From NCBI RefSeq assembly GCF_001854245.1, contig NZ_CP015381.1, forward strand, positions 646,001 to 710,000: DNA of 64,000 bases, in the 5' to 3' direction. Position numbers and translations under genes: made by a program. The notes beneath the pieces are model-generated. The model saw only the letters and a program-made list of their open reading frames with translations, did not search any database and was not told the DNA's origin. The number at the start of each line of letters is the position of its first letter. Position 1 is the stretch's first letter. This DNA is from Desulfococcus multivorans. Its GTDB lineage: Bacteria; Desulfobacterota; Desulfobacteria; Desulfobacterales; Desulfococcaceae. This document shows positions 2,489 through 52,570 of the stretch, piece after piece.

Positions 2489-3085
2489 CTATCCGATCTT
2501 TCGTTCGATCGAGGAAACGTAGCTCTCGAACATGTCTTGCCGATCCGCTTCGGTCATGTGATCCGGAAGGCGGGTCATGGCGAGGTTGATCGCTGCATCC
2601 ACCAGCCTGTCCTTAAATGTTTTTTTCGCCGCCAGGATATAACCGCCGACCTTCTGCTCGGCCAGAGACATCATGAATTCGCTTTCCCGCTCGGCGTCGG
2701 CGATCAAATCCTGCCGTCGCTTTTCGCCCATGCGGACGATCGTTTCCTTCAGCTCGGCAAAGCGGACATCGCTCGCCACCATGGCTTTGCGGGCCTCGTT
2801 GATTTTTTCGGTGACCAGGGCTTTTTCATTTTCCAGGTCCTTGATTTCCGCCGCGATTTCATCCCGGCGCATCCTCAGAAATCCCATCAGCGGCTTTTTG
2901 CCGAACTTCACCACGACAAAGGAGAGGATGCCGAAGTTGACCCAGAGCATCACCATATCATAGGTCTTGCGCCAATTCCCGTTTCCCTCCTCGGCGAATG
3001 CATCACCTCCGAACAGGTGAAGGCATGCCGCCGTACCGGCAAGGACAACAATCCACAGGCTCAGAAATTTCCACTTGTTTTTCAT
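2489..3085 (-). CDS. atpF: ATP synthase Fo subunit b
   Basis: Peripheral-stalk subunit linking the membrane Fo to F1. The 198-residue protein has an N-terminal hydrophobic stretch with possible signal-like character (ends near AFAEE). A second membrane segment (VMLWVNFGILSFVVVKFG) is followed by a long charged helix rich in Glu, Lys and Arg, as in b subunits. The start overlaps the end of the upstream b' gene by four bases. It is the last gene of the operon, with a hairpin terminator about 30 bases downstream. The delta, alpha, gamma, beta and epsilon genes that usually follow are absent. Confidence 0.88.
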   Translation of the reverse strand: MKNKWKFLSLWIVVLAGTAACLHLFGGDAFAEEGNGNWRKTYDMVMLWVNFGILSFVVVKFGKKPLMGFLRMRRDEIAAEIKDLENEKALVTEKINEARKAMVASDVRFAELKETIVRMGEKRRQDLIADAERESEFMMSLAEQKVGGYILAAKKTFKDRLVDAAINLAMTRLPDHMTEADRQDMFESYVSSIERKIG

Positions 3086-3537
3086 GAAGATAATCTCCGG
3101 TTCAGCACCTTTTCCATGATATGGACGGCCAGATGCTCCGATTCGGCCTCAAGGTGCTTTTGGGCTTCCTTGAGCTGCACGTCGACTTGCTTCTCCGTTT
3201 TATGCCTCAGTTCAGCAATGGCTGAAACAGCCTTTCGGTGAATGCTTTCGGCCGTTTCACTGCCTTCGTGCTCTAACTTCGCGCTGATGTTGTACGCCTC
3301 TATCTTGACGACTTTCTCCCGTTGTCTCAGATCCGTCAGGATGTTCTCCACCTCATTTTCCGTATCCTTGATCCCCTGGTCGAGGCCCTGGATGAAGTCG
3401 TCCCGCTCGGTCATGGTCGTTTTCAGCGGCCGGAACATGATGCGGTTGATAATGAACAGGAAGATCAGAAACGAGATCAACTGGGCGAACAGAGTTTCAT
3501 TGATGCTGATTAAAGCTATATTGCTGACGATTTGCAT
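3082..3537 (-). CDS. atpF': ATP synthase Fo subunit b' (second b-type)
   Basis: A second, shorter b-type stalk subunit of 151 residues. One N-terminal membrane helix (LFAQLISFLIFLFIINRIMF) is followed by a charged coiled-coil region and no other domain. Paired b and b' genes are known from photosynthetic bacteria and many deltaproteobacteria, where the two form a heterodimeric stalk. It lies 30 bases after atpE and overlaps atpF by four bases, so the three genes are probably cotranslated. Confidence 0.85.
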   Translation of the reverse strand: MQIVSNIALISINETLFAQLISFLIFLFIINRIMFRPLKTTMTERDDFIQGLDQGIKDTENEVENILTDLRQREKVVKIEAYNISAKLEHEGSETAESIHRKAVSAIAELRHKTEKQVDVQLKEAQKHLEAESEHLAVHIMEKVLNRRLSS

Positions 3538-3567: not shown

Positions 3568-3825
3568 CTAAACGACGAAAAGAAGCAACAGCGCAATGAC
3601 AAGAGAATAGATTCCCGTTGATTCCGTAACGGCCTGGCCGACGAGCATGGTTCGCGTCAGGAGTCCGGCTTCCTTCGGATTCTTTCCGATGGCCTCACAG
3701 GCCTTGGCGGCTGCCATTCCTTCACCGACACCAGGTCCGATTGCACCCAGTCCCATACAAAATCCCGCGCCGAGAAAAGCTGCCGATCTGATGATATCTA
3801 CGCCTTCGATTGCCATGTTAATCAA
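3568..3825 (-). CDS. atpE: ATP synthase Fo subunit c (single hairpin)
   Basis: Rotor-ring subunit, 85 residues, one hairpin of two glycine-rich membrane helices joined by the polar loop KNPKEAG. The ion-binding glutamate is E68 in TESTGIYSL. Helix 1 carries a second carboxylate, E35 in GPGVGEG, where Na+-type c subunits such as that of Ilyobacter have Gln. A two-carboxylate motif of this kind is known from the Na+-driven Fusobacterium nucleatum ring. E-S-T in helix 2 also fits the Na+ motif. Na+ coupling is inference. The gene follows a four-hairpin c paralogue whose last hairpin is nearly identical to this protein. Confidence 0.93.
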   Translation of the reverse strand: MINMAIEGVDIIRSAAFLGAGFCMGLGAIGPGVGEGMAAAKACEAIGKNPKEAGLLTRTMLVGQAVTESTGIYSLVIALLLLFVV

Positions 3826-3890: not shown

Positions 3891-4862
3891 CTATACGACA
3901 AAGATCAAAATCAGTGCGATGACCAGGGAATAGATGCCGGTGGATTCGGAGACCGCCTGTCCCACGAGCATGGAGCGGGTCAATATCGCCACCTCGTTCG
4001 GACTTCGCGACATCCATCGAACCGCTCCCTCGCCGGTGAATCCCTCTCCGATTCCCGGTCCGACGGCCCCGAGTCCCATGCACAATCCGGCTGCGACCAA
4101 GGCCATGCAGGCTGCCATAGACGTGGCCGGTTCAAAGGTTTTGAAGAGCAGTATCACGGCGACAAGAAGCCCGTAAATCGCGGTGGTTTCGGCAACGGCC
4201 ATTCCCAGAAGCATGCCGTTGGTGACGGGCGCCCTGCTGAGCGGCTGTCTTGCCACCCCCTCGCATCCGGCTCTTGCGACGAATCCCTCTCCGATGCCGG
4301 AGCCTATGGCGCCAAGTCCCGCGGCAAAACCCGCGCCGATGACGGCCGCCCATGTCGGCGAAAAGGGACGGGTGAAAAAGTCCGCATACAGCAGAATCAG
4401 GGACGTGACCAGTGCGTAAATCGCCGATGTCTGCGTAACCGCCGATCCGATCAGCATGGTGGTGGTCAGTTGATCCGCTATAGCCGGCTGACGGGAAATA
4501 CCGAAACACGCTTCGCCCGCGGGATATCCGGCGCCGATGCCGGAGCCGATGGCGCCCAGCCCCATGCAAACGCCGGCCGAGACGAGGATGTACACCGATA
4601 GCGTTTCCGCCCGGTGCTGGGTGAACAGCAATATCATGGACACCACCAGCGCGAAGATGGCTGCTGATTCCGCCACTGCCTGCCCCACCAGCATGTTCTT
4701 GAAAATGTTTCCGGCGGAGTCGGGATTTCTGGAGATGCCGGCGTTTGCCTGTGCAGCCGTATACCCTTCTCCGATGGCGGCCCCGACGGCCCCGAAACCC
4801 ATCGACAGACCACTTCCAATAAAAGCCGAGACCTTTACCCAAGTTGCGATGTCATATGTCAT
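3891..4862 (-). CDS. Fused four-hairpin ATP synthase c subunit
   Basis: A 323-residue membrane protein made of four tandem c-subunit hairpins (about residues 8-82, 88-161, 168-241 and 250-323), eight helices in all. Hairpins 1, 3 and 4 keep paired carboxylates: E32/E65, E192/E225 and E273/E306. Hairpin 2 has lost both (A111 and Q144 at the matching positions), so it should not carry an ion. Hairpin 4 ends with SESTGIYSLVIALIL, almost the same as atpE next door. Fused c subunits are known from V/A-type rings and from the duplicated V-like c1 of the Acetobacterium F-type enzyme. A fourfold version inside a bacterial F-type operon is unusual. The gene starts two bases after the atpB stop. Confidence 0.9.
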   Translation of the reverse strand: MTYDIATWVKVSAFIGSGLSMGFGAVGAAIGEGYTAAQANAGISRNPDSAGNIFKNMLVGQAVAESAAIFALVVSMILLFTQHRAETLSVYILVSAGVCMGLGAIGSGIGAGYPAGEACFGISRQPAIADQLTTTMLIGSAVTQTSAIYALVTSLILLYADFFTRPFSPTWAAVIGAGFAAGLGAIGSGIGEGFVARAGCEGVARQPLSRAPVTNGMLLGMAVAETTAIYGLLVAVILLFKTFEPATSMAACMALVAAGLCMGLGAVGPGIGEGFTGEGAVRWMSRSPNEVAILTRSMLVGQAVSESTGIYSLVIALILIFVV

Positions 4863-4864
4863 GG

Positions 4865-5539
4865 TTATCTAACCTGTACTGAGATGTAAACAACGGTGAG
4901 CATTGTAAAAACGAACGCCTGAATGGTGCCCACGAAAAGGCCGAAAAAGGCATTGAGAAGCGGCGGAAAAATGATGCTGTATGTCAGATACGAGACGACC
5001 AGAATAATGATGGACCCGCCCATGATATTGCCGAACAAACGGAAGGATATCGATACCACCTTGGCGAGCTCGCCGATGACGTTCAGCGGCATCATGAAAA
5101 AAATCGGCTGGAAATATTCCTTGACGTACTCCTTGAACCCCTTTGCTTTGATCCCGGCGTAGTGGGCGATGACAAAACCCATCAACCCCAGACTCAAGGG
5201 GGTGTTCAGGTCTTTCGTCGGCTCCTCGAGGTTCGGGATGATGCCGAACCAGTTGGAGAGGACCAGAAACATGAAGAGCGCGCAGATCAGAGGCGCATAA
5301 GTCTTGGCTTTCTCCTTGCCCAGCGCATCCTCCGTCAGTCCATACAGATGTACGACAAACAACTCTCCCACGGACTGCAACGGCCCCGGCAGCCGGCTTC
5401 GCTTTCGAGACGCCAGAAAACCGAAGAGAAGCAGGCTGCCGATAACGAGCCACGTCATGACCATCACCTCGAGGTTGAACGTCATGTCGTGTCCGAAGAA
5501 CGGAACGATCAACTGGTGTACCCTACCTAATTCTTCCAT
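4865..5539 (-). CDS. atpB: ATP synthase Fo subunit a
   Basis: Stator subunit that forms the two ion half-channels beside the c ring. The 224-residue protein has five or six membrane helices. It carries the essential arginine in the conserved SFRLFGNIMGG segment and the NWFGIIPN loop. The C-terminal helix with Q in IQAFVFTMLTVVYI is also typical. It is followed after two bases by the four-hairpin c gene and preceded by the atpI-like gene, the normal order for an Fo operon. Confidence 0.95.
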   Translation of the reverse strand: MEELGRVHQLIVPFFGHDMTFNLEVMVMTWLVIGSLLLFGFLASRKRSRLPGPLQSVGELFVVHLYGLTEDALGKEKAKTYAPLICALFMFLVLSNWFGIIPNLEEPTKDLNTPLSLGLMGFVIAHYAGIKAKGFKEYVKEYFQPIFFMMPLNVIGELAKVVSISFRLFGNIMGGSIIILVVSYLTYSIIFPPLLNAFFGLFVGTIQAFVFTMLTVVYISVQVR

Positions 5540-5563
5540 AAATCACTTCCTCTAAGATGACCC

Positions 5564-5944
5564 CTATCCGGTTGAAGAAAAAATGAAGGACGAAAAATGA
5601 TCAATGAGAATCATCATCTGGACCATGAACAGTCCGATGACGACGGCAAACAGATTGAAGTCTTCGGATTTGATGGCGACGACCAGGGGGACGGCCATCA
5701 GTCCGAAGCGCAGGAGGATGGATCCCATGGATAAAACGAGTGATTTGATTCTGGAGGATTGAAGAACCCTGCGGGGCAGGGACTCGCCGATGAGGATGAA
5801 ATTGACGATGCTGGCGAGGGTGCCGATGATGAGGCCTTTTGCAAAAGGTTTCTGAGCGGCAAAGATGAAGACAAGAGAGATGAGGATGGCAGATATCAGT
5901 GCTCTGGAACAGTACGTCTTCTGGGTTTGTCGTACGGTATTCAT
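5564..5944 (-). CDS. atpI: ATP synthase subunit I-like membrane protein
   Basis: A 126-residue protein with four predicted membrane helices (AILISLVFIFAA, GLIIGTLASIVNFIL, SMGSILLRFGLMAVPLV, LFAVVIGLFMVQMMILI). This is the layout of the ATP synthase I family, which helps assemble the c ring or supplies Mg2+/Ca2+. The glycine and Asn pattern of the second helix fits that family. The start ATG at 5942-5944 overlaps the stop of the upstream atpZ-like gene. The family call rests on topology, size and position rather than on catalytic residues. Confidence 0.75.
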   Translation of the reverse strand: MNTVRQTQKTYCSRALISAILISLVFIFAAQKPFAKGLIIGTLASIVNFILIGESLPRRVLQSSRIKSLVLSMGSILLRFGLMAVPLVVAIKSEDFNLFAVVIGLFMVQMMILIDHFSSFIFSSTG

Positions 5945-6243
5945 TCCCGGTTTTTTGTCTCTCCGTCTTTTCCCTGCCCCATCATGTCCATGATTTGGCG
6001 ATAGGCCACATTTCCACCGCCGATGACGCCCAGCAGGATGAAAATGGTTACAAAGATGCCTCGGGTTCCCAGCCATTTGTCGATATACCAACCGACAAAA
6101 AAACAGAAGATGATACAACCTGCCATCGTGAGGCCGAGCTGCATGATGATTTGCAGATTTTCAGCCCAGTCCCGATTCTTTTTGTAGTTGAAATATTTCT
6201 TTGCCGTTGTCGACCTCCGGTGGATGAGTTTTGCCGCATGCAT
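5941..6243 (-). CDS. atpZ: AtpZ/AtpI-type small membrane protein
   Basis: A 100-residue protein with two membrane helices (LGLTMAGCIIFCFFVGWYIDKWLG and FVTIFILLGVIGGGNVAYR regions). This is the pattern of the AtpZ/AtpI family at the head of many bacterial ATP synthase operons, with a proposed role in ring assembly or divalent cation uptake. The conserved G-W-x-x-D-K-W-L-G signature is present. The only in-frame start is the ATG at 6243, which lacks a clear ribosome-binding site. A GGAGG lies about 30 bases inside the gene with no start codon at a useful distance, so the exact N-terminus is uncertain. Confidence 0.75.
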   Translation of the reverse strand: MHAAKLIHRRSTTAKKYFNYKKNRDWAENLQIIMQLGLTMAGCIIFCFFVGWYIDKWLGTRGIFVTIFILLGVIGGGNVAYRQIMDMMGQGKDGETKNRE

Positions 6244-52216: not shown

Positions 52217-52570
52217 GGGGGCGAAACGGCTTCGACGGGGATAAAGAAGCATTGATTGCATGTCGAGGTTTCCTGCTGCTCGTTAAACGCGGGAAATAAA
52301 TATAATCGCAGACGATTATAACTACGCCGTAGCCGCTTAGGCGGCTTCCGTTCTGCCAGGTTCCTCCCGCGGACCTGAACAGAGCGTCGACTTAGCGGGA
52401 TAGTTGGTCCGGATTGCCTGGCTCCGGTCCGGCGAACGTTACAGGCTGGCCTTATACGGAATCCCGTCCGGAGGAGACCGTAAAAGGCGAGAATAAAACT
52501 CCGGAATAAGCATGTAGATATCAATGTGGAATGTTTTCGGACGCGGGTTCAACTCCCGCCGCCTCCACCA
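52217..52570 (+). ncRNA. ssrA: Transfer-messenger RNA
   Basis: tmRNA of about 354 bases. The 5' end (GGGGGCG at 52217-52223) pairs with the 3' acceptor strand CGCCTCC (52560-52566), which is followed by the encoded ACCA. A T-loop-like GGTTCAACTCC is near the 3' end. The tag reading frame is 52308-52340 and encodes ADDYNYAVAA then TAG; with the alanine carried in by the tRNA part, the tag would be A-ADDYNYAVAA. It rescues stalled ribosomes with SmpB, encoded just upstream. Confidence 0.96.

Follow-up and report, generated by a model that had tools for sequence, protein, structure and literature searches.

An F-type c subunit built of four fused hairpins, one of them stripped of its ion-binding site, is encoded in the window (the whole stretch of 64,000 nucleotides of Desulfococcus multivorans DNA that was analysed), and it probably takes part in a hybrid Na+ rotor that moves fewer ions per turn and belongs to a second F0, which shares one F1 with a proton-type F0. 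This reading is drawn from gene content and sequence comparison. The protein belongs to a family that is spread through the phylum and that carries a graded series of silent sites, of which the window form is the least reduced four-hairpin stage.

The four tandem c hairpins proposed in the preliminary description are borne out by a Pfam search, in which ATP-synt_C (PF00137) matched the open reading frame of 323 residues in four stretches (4.1e-61), and the eight residues named there (E32, E65, A111, Q144, E192, E225, E273 and E306) are all correct. Its location, 3891-4862, holds as well, and the gene is read from the minus strand (Table 1). These four stretches, lying beside a gene with PF00119 for the a subunit and genes with PF00430 for b and b', identify the protein as an F-type c subunit. 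Pairwise identity among its four hairpins is only 44-46%, and the single-hairpin AtpE encoded next to it is 61% identical to hairpin 4. The AlphaFold2 model of the chain consists of long helices (mean pLDDT 95.2, pTM 0.91); that of a five-hairpin relative reached a pLDDT of 88.4 and a pTM of 0.89, and the size of the ring is not informed by it.

Table 1. Features of the F0 operon, and one RNA gene, in window coordinates
Feature	Position	Strand	Remarks
AtpZ-like, putative F0F1-ATPase Ca2+/Mg2+ transporter family	5941..6243	minus	PF09527
ATP synthase I chain	5564..5944	minus	PF03899
AtpB, a subunit	4865..5539	minus	PF00119; stator Arg167 in SFRLFGN
Four-hairpin F-type c subunit	3891..4862	minus	ORF of 323 aa, ATG at 4862, stop at 3891; site pattern E-Q-E-E
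Hairpin 1 (about residues 9-81)	4620..4838	minus	E32, E65-S66-A67, F70
Hairpin 2 (about residues 91-162), silent	4377..4592	minus	A111, Q144-T145
Hairpin 3 (about residues 171-242), active in window	4137..4352	minus	E192, E225-T226-T227
Hairpin 4 (about residues 252-323), active in window	3894..4109	minus	E273, E306-S307-T308, Y311
Single-hairpin AtpE, 82 aa	3568..3816	minus	ATG at 3816, GGAGG upstream
b' subunit of window F0	3082..3537	minus	PF00430
b subunit of window F0	2489..3085	minus	PF00430; followed by cobU, cobS
tmRNA gene	52217-52570		sole Rfam match in the window

The occurrence of the family was surveyed with its model A1 and a threshold of E ≤ 1e-32, set to drop single c genes, which had reached about 1e-23 in an earlier family search. 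In the class, 125 of 291 genomes match, in 75 of 123 genera, and in a phylum-wide draw 34 of 297 genomes match, in 27 of 199 genera, with 28 of the 34 outside the class; some of these matches are fragments at contig ends (e.g., G292), and the gene positions in the class survey are those among the matches listed. Carriers include Desulfatibacillum alkenivorans DSM 16219, Desulfosarcina alkanivorans PL12, Desulfatitalea alkaliphila, Dethiosulfatarculus sandiegensis and Desulfocarbo indianensis. Three genomes (G007, G040 and G228, among the matches listed) hold two multi-hairpin genes, which in G007 are one four- and one five-hairpin form, and the gene order varies, with the multi-hairpin gene placed before a in L206 (G077) and behind b in L021 (G017). 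The search of other genomes suggested in the preliminary description thus finds the form widely, and the possibility considered there, that the fusion occurs in this assembly only, is excluded by the recurrence of the family in many genomes. That the gene is an assembly artefact or a pseudogene can be dismissed as virtually without chance, given that the genome is a single contig of 4,455,399 bases, that the family recurs across the class and beyond it, in 28 genomes, and that the hairpins have diverged so far from one another, which makes a misassembly of repeats implausible when, in the main DNA repeat family, identity to the reference copy is 66-70%.

In the operon, the genes follow the order AtpZ-like, ATP synthase I chain, a, four-hairpin c, single c, b' and b, and then CobU and CobS, with the ATG of the four-hairpin gene starting two bases past the stop of the a gene. 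The F1 genes (delta, alpha, gamma, beta and epsilon) are absent from it. The description of the locus as a bacterial F-type operon therefore stands for the type of its a, b, b' and c subunits and fails for its completeness, since what is present is an F0 without F1 genes.

The residues of the single AtpE (E32, V63, T64, E65, S66, T67 and Y70) make up a two-carboxylate motif of the Na+ type. The Na+ ligand set used for this assignment was Q/E32, V63, E65, S/T66, T67 and Y70, with Tyr70 as part of the two-carboxylate Na+ site. This set is complete in the single AtpE and in hairpins 3 and 4 of the window chain, and incomplete in hairpin 1, which has A67 and F70, and in hairpin 2, which has neither E32 nor E65. 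In the two-carboxylate site of Fusobacterium nucleatum, E32, V63, E65, S66 and T67 are ligands of Na+ or water (PMC3692424). The motif is no proof of Na+ coupling, given that the Sporomusa ovata enzyme is described as having the Na+ motif and an ATPase without stimulation by Na+ (PMC9430772). Desulfococcus multivorans is a marine sulfate reducer that forms two Rnf complexes under the conditions tested, and a prominent role of Na+ in its bioenergetics has been proposed in its genome and proteome paper, the main text of which contains neither 'ATP synthase' nor 'ATPase' (PMC5109826).

The states of the sites were compared in 155 distinct chains from fetched loci, a part of all survey matches, of which at least four (L134, L148, L162 and L196) are cut or damaged. 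Two-hairpin chains are E-Q (4) or E-E (1), a class inflated by one through L196, and three-hairpin chains are E-Q-E (8) or E-Q-Q (6), inflated by two through L148 and L162. The four-hairpin chains have the patterns E-Q-E-E of the window type (16), E-Q-Q-E (49), E-Q-Q-Q (45), E-Q-E-Q (2) and E-Q-Q-S (1), with one chain cut at its start; five-hairpin chains are E-Q-Q-Q-Q (8) or E-Q-Q-Q-E (5), and six-hairpin chains E-Q-Q-Q-Q-Q (8) or E-Q-Q-Q-Q-E (1). Working sites per chain number one in 73 chains, two in 66 and three in 16. E65 is present in hairpin 1 of all 154 chains in which this hairpin is complete. Hairpin 2 has Gln in 154 chains and Glu in one, so that its silence, the conservation of which the preliminary description had proposed to check, holds in 154 of 155. 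Hairpin 3 has Q in most four-hairpin relatives and hairpin 4 in many. The fourfold form, which had been called unusual, is consequently not a curiosity of one gene, and it takes its place in a series that runs through the phylum.

The residue at the silent site is Gln in 372 of 373 silent hairpins and Ser in the remaining one. In all 373, position 66 is Ser or Thr and the partner Glu32 is gone, being replaced mostly by S, G, N or A. Active hairpins keep E32 in 242 of 253 cases, with I, D, Q or L in the rest. Values of pN/pS were 0.151-0.185 for silent and 0.145-0.210 for active hairpins, and given that the 449 pairs are non-independent and that synonymous sites are near saturation, it is only the comparison of hairpin with hairpin that counts. 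With Gln almost uniform and constraint no less than in active hairpins, the silence is specific and apparently maintained, and it looks selected. The loss of sites extends to hairpins 3 and 4 in several lineages, as it would if the silent hairpins were decaying, non-functional duplicates that the ring tolerates, but this is a highly improbable reading: a decaying site would not be expected to show Q in place of assorted residues, the silent hairpins have pN/pS within the range of the active ones, and the hairpin tree suggests that extra hairpins came from hairpins already silent. Pseudogene formation and decay were rejected on the first two of these grounds.

This tree comprised 117 hairpins from 23 chosen chains (short search, with too few columns for firm detail). 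In it, the first hairpins form one group (support 89), while the second and penultimate hairpins, joined by six of the eight middle ones in longer chains, fall largely into one group (support 97); the two remaining middle hairpins and the penultimate hairpin of the six-hairpin chain L185, and the penultimate hairpin of L184, are placed beside the silent last hairpins. On either placement, the additional hairpins seem to stem from the duplication of hairpins in which the site had already fallen silent. In L186 (G426, 5165-5653), a two-hairpin chain of the E-E type attaches at the base of the first hairpins and might preserve the condition that preceded the loss of sites. In the six-hairpin chain of L160 (G150, 3994-5469), the last hairpin has E65 with Ile at position 32 and groups among silent last hairpins; a return of the site in this hairpin is possible. 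For 113 four-hairpin chains, a tree built with the site masked (short search, unrooted) requires at least 10 changes to account for the patterns, with minima of six in hairpin 3 and four in hairpin 4; the well-supported branches alone force fewer.

In nearly all loci the chain is adjoined by a single c (149 of 155), with one copy in 148 and two copies in one; of the six loci lacking it, five are broken off by the end of a contig, and in one the flank is just 1.5 kb long. All 150 of these single c sequences have E65, S66, T67 and Y70; at position 32, 145 of them have E and five have Q. The a subunits differ as well from those of the proton-type. In a tree of 67 of the 149 a subunits of multi-hairpin operons (the four-hairpin ones thinned) and 21 proton-type a subunits (short search), the former make up one group (SH-aLRT 99) and the latter stand apart (SH-aLRT 97). 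The stator Arg is kept in more than 97% of both sets (149 and 21 rows), and flanking positions differ, with N153/E157 in multi-hairpin operons versus E156/H160 in the proton-type.

One or a few multi-hairpin chains would join the neighbouring single-hairpin AtpE in a hybrid c-ring. The mixed ring with fewer ions than hairpins, as put forward in the preliminary description, fits the single c beside the chain and the silent hairpin 2; the change in the ion-to-ATP ratio that was derived from it is a prediction, since the composition of the ring is itself predicted. The ring of Acetobacterium woodii is mixed as deposited (4bem), holding nine c2 chains plus a single c1 chain of two hairpins, which gives 11 hairpins. 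A promoter inside the operon, before the single c, would have been a hint that singles are made in excess; such promoters were not clearly enriched, being found in 19 of 133 segments versus 12.6 expected from mononucleotide shuffles.

A ring could instead be formed from multi-hairpin chains only, for example from three four-hairpin chains with 12 hairpins, the single c being used in another ring or in another role, in which case far fewer ions would move per turn, with a minimum of 3 for E-Q-Q-Q, or one per ATP. Chains of two, three, four and six hairpins divide 12, but those of five do not, and an intact-site single c accompanies the chain in 149 of 155 loci. One protein of 13 hairpins, with all sites kept, is proposed as the whole rotor of the A-type enzyme of Methanopyrus (PMC2359735); the structure from A. 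woodii is, on the other hand, that of a mixed ring. The genome G053 also speaks against a ring of long chains alone. Its orphan F0 operon (L236, G053:C1:2556500-2567000) is of the window kind and has the single c without a multi-hairpin gene, indicating that the long chain is dispensable for keeping this F0, whether it was lost there (a natural deletion) or was never present (ancestral absence), either of which may be the case. Taken together, the evidence makes a rotor of fused chains only unlikely.

The operon of the window has to be seen against the other ATP synthase genes of the genome, which holds three a subunits, two F1 gamma genes and two F1 alpha/beta pairs, as well as, at 1411 kb, a weaker fifth match to PF00006. 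The N-ATPase of this genome, at 17-24 kb, has its own F1 and its own Na+-type single-hairpin c; with it counted, the genome encodes three F0 motors. The canonical F1 lies at 1346 kb (b', b, delta, alpha, gamma, beta and epsilon), and a second F0 at 1224 kb comprises AtpI, a and c only. The c of the latter has Q32, E65, S66 and Leu at 67, and from the missing T67 we infer that this F0 is of the proton type. With three a subunits against two F1, and with each F1 placed at another locus, the window F0 is left without an F1 of its own.

The same imbalance was found in other carriers by counting a (PF00119) and gamma (PF00231) subunits, most of the genomes being drafts. In a set of 58 genomes of relatives, a exceeded gamma by one in 25 of the 36 carriers and by more in 10, with no surplus in one, and among the 22 non-carriers the difference was 0 in 20, +1 in G053, owing to an F0 of the window kind that lacks the long chain, and -1 in G056. 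It was +1 in 35 of 36 further carriers. For the last count, which took in 80 of the 84 remaining carriers (G257, G275, G289 and G292 being omitted, and G531 too) with positions among the matches listed, it was +1 in 57, 0 in 18 and +2 in five. Pooled, 117 of 152 carriers have a surplus of one, 16 a larger one and 19 none, the last including eight drafts with a single a; gaps in the drafts are likely behind the deviating counts. Of the single-contig carriers, 10 of 11 have +1, and the eleventh has +2 owing to an extra match that is short and below the family cut-off. In 20 other genomes chosen for reading, the second F0 has a and c with Leu at position 67 of c (proton-type), accompanied by AtpI in 18 and by an AtpZ-like gene in six, with no b within the 4.5-7.5 kb read. 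In 11 of the 155 loci, each belonging to one of three other families within the phylum (f86, f97 and f109), the multi-hairpin operon extends to b', b and delta, with alpha, gamma and beta added in nine; the a subunits of these loci and of the orphan operons fall into one group (67 rows, support 99).

The most economical explanation of these gene counts and linkages is that the canonical F1 serves the two F0 motors in common. No description of two F0 on one F1 was found in the open-access literature, among the matches listed and in the portions of text available. The window F0 would bring a, b' and b and dock on the canonical F1 at 1346 kb, which would also serve the proton-type F0 at 1224 kb. 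A single F1 in the cell would then be fitted with two gears, one for protons and one for sodium, the sodium gear working with fewer ions per ATP. Within the ring, a Gln hairpin would be permanently neutral, like an occupied site, and would pass the lipid and the stator Arg with no ion moved. Given that such hairpins would carry no ion past the a subunit, the ions per turn would fall: assuming a ring of 11 hairpins, as in A. woodii, and one chain per ring, the window form would move 10 ions per turn (3.3 per ATP) and the E-Q-Q-Q-Q-Q form 6 (2.0 per ATP). At a lower ratio, synthesis would demand a steeper gradient and hydrolysis would build a steeper one, which would suit the raising or use of a steep Na+ gradient.

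The direction of operation is the least certain part of the proposed hybrid rotor. Long silent runs would favour ATP-driven pumping, and the E-Q-E-E form might work in both directions. A more restricted version of the same proposal, which leaves ATP synthesis to the proton F0 and has the enzyme act solely as a Na+ pump driven by ATP, is a possibility to be taken seriously, though it is not the one preferred here. Silent runs reach five hairpins, with at least two in a row in 124 of 155 chains, and most carriers keep another F0, which is proton-type in the window genome and in the 20 others read. A single E56Q in the fused c10 ring of Bacillus PS3 left no ATP synthesis, according to PMC8809890, citing Mitome 2004. 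Silent hairpins, therefore, need not merely change the ratio, and long runs of them may confine the enzyme to pumping. Against a pump-only role stand the E-Q-E-E and E-Q-E forms, in which the silent sites are isolated.

A broader proposal, in which one F1 is common to an exchangeable proton F0 with a full ring and to a sodium F0 whose sites (one to three per two to six hairpins) are tunable by evolution, giving the cell two gears and two ions and making the phylum a natural series of gears, is on balance somewhat favoured by the sequence data. The number of ions per ATP is usually fixed by the size of the ring, and here it is sites within a fused chain that are silenced. The gear ratio of this engine seems to have been varied many times in nature, in a phylum whose sulfate reducers are environmentally important, and the silencing is nearly always the change of Glu to Gln that was reported to stop ATP synthesis with an engineered proton ring. 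How a rotor passes silent sites, and whether only pumping remains, becomes directly testable in this series. If it is true that two F0 share an F1, modular switching of gear and ion would be added to the repertoire of ATP synthases.

Among known systems, the closest is the c1 of A. woodii, chain J of 4bem, which is the best match both by fold (Z 16.1, rmsd 1.3 over 156 residues) and by sequence (E 3e-25, with 33-36% identity over the aligned part). The c1 of A. woodii and Clostridium aceticum resembles the window protein in being F-type, in having an active (E) and then a silent (Q...QT) hairpin, in the adjacent single c and in the Na+ motif. The A. woodii c1, whose operon carries its own F1, differs in having two hairpins, one of them silent, and Gln at 32, whereas the window family has two to six hairpins. 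That fused c subunits with lost sites are known for V-type rings and for the Acetobacterium c1, as stated in the preliminary description, agrees with PMC2359735 and PMC7911925, the latter describing the acetogen c1 as two hairpins with the second silent (Q....QT) and a lower Na+/ATP ratio.

Other systems share single traits. The c-ring of F. nucleatum (3zk1) has the residues of the window AtpE, with Glu32, Val63, Glu65, Ser66 and Thr67 as named in PMC3692424, but it consists of 11 identical single hairpins, none fused or silent. Fused hairpins, often with lost sites, are found in the c/K subunits of V- and A-type enzymes (eukaryotic V-ATPase, NtpK of Enterococcus hirae, K of methanogens; PMC2359735), which differ in having V/A stator and catalytic parts; the F-type neighbours a, b' and b rule out membership of the window operon in this group. 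The N-ATPase, or alternate F1F0, which occurs in the same genome, shares with the window operon a Na+-type F0 with AtpQ- and AtpR-like proteins, but it has its own alpha, beta and gamma and a single-hairpin c. Membership of the window operon was rejected, given that it has no F1 genes, that its a subunit scores 132.5 against the alternate-F1F0 a model, for which the cut-off is 302.1, and that the N-ATPase lies at a separate locus. The four-hairpin chain passes the cut-off of NCBIfam TIGR03322 (alternate F1F0 c), in our view because its four stretches add up, and the single c falls below it.

The abstract of the 2015 review of hybrid rotors by Brandt and Mueller reportedly gives a total of twelve anaerobic species in which an operon holds one c gene of the F type and one of the V type; some of these could be sulfate reducers, so the form may already have been described in part. 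In the open-access literature, among the matches listed and in the available portions of text, no mention was found of F-type c subunits longer than two hairpins. The order of E in the first hairpin and Q in the second, typical of c1, is present in the window chain and in 153 of the 155 chains (the other two being the one cut at its start and the E-E chain), but the number of hairpins is four in the window and two to six in the relatives, in place of exactly two. The window protein, which would work like c1 and keeps its order of active and then silent hairpin without being limited to two hairpins, is thus best regarded as a variant of the hybrid rotor.
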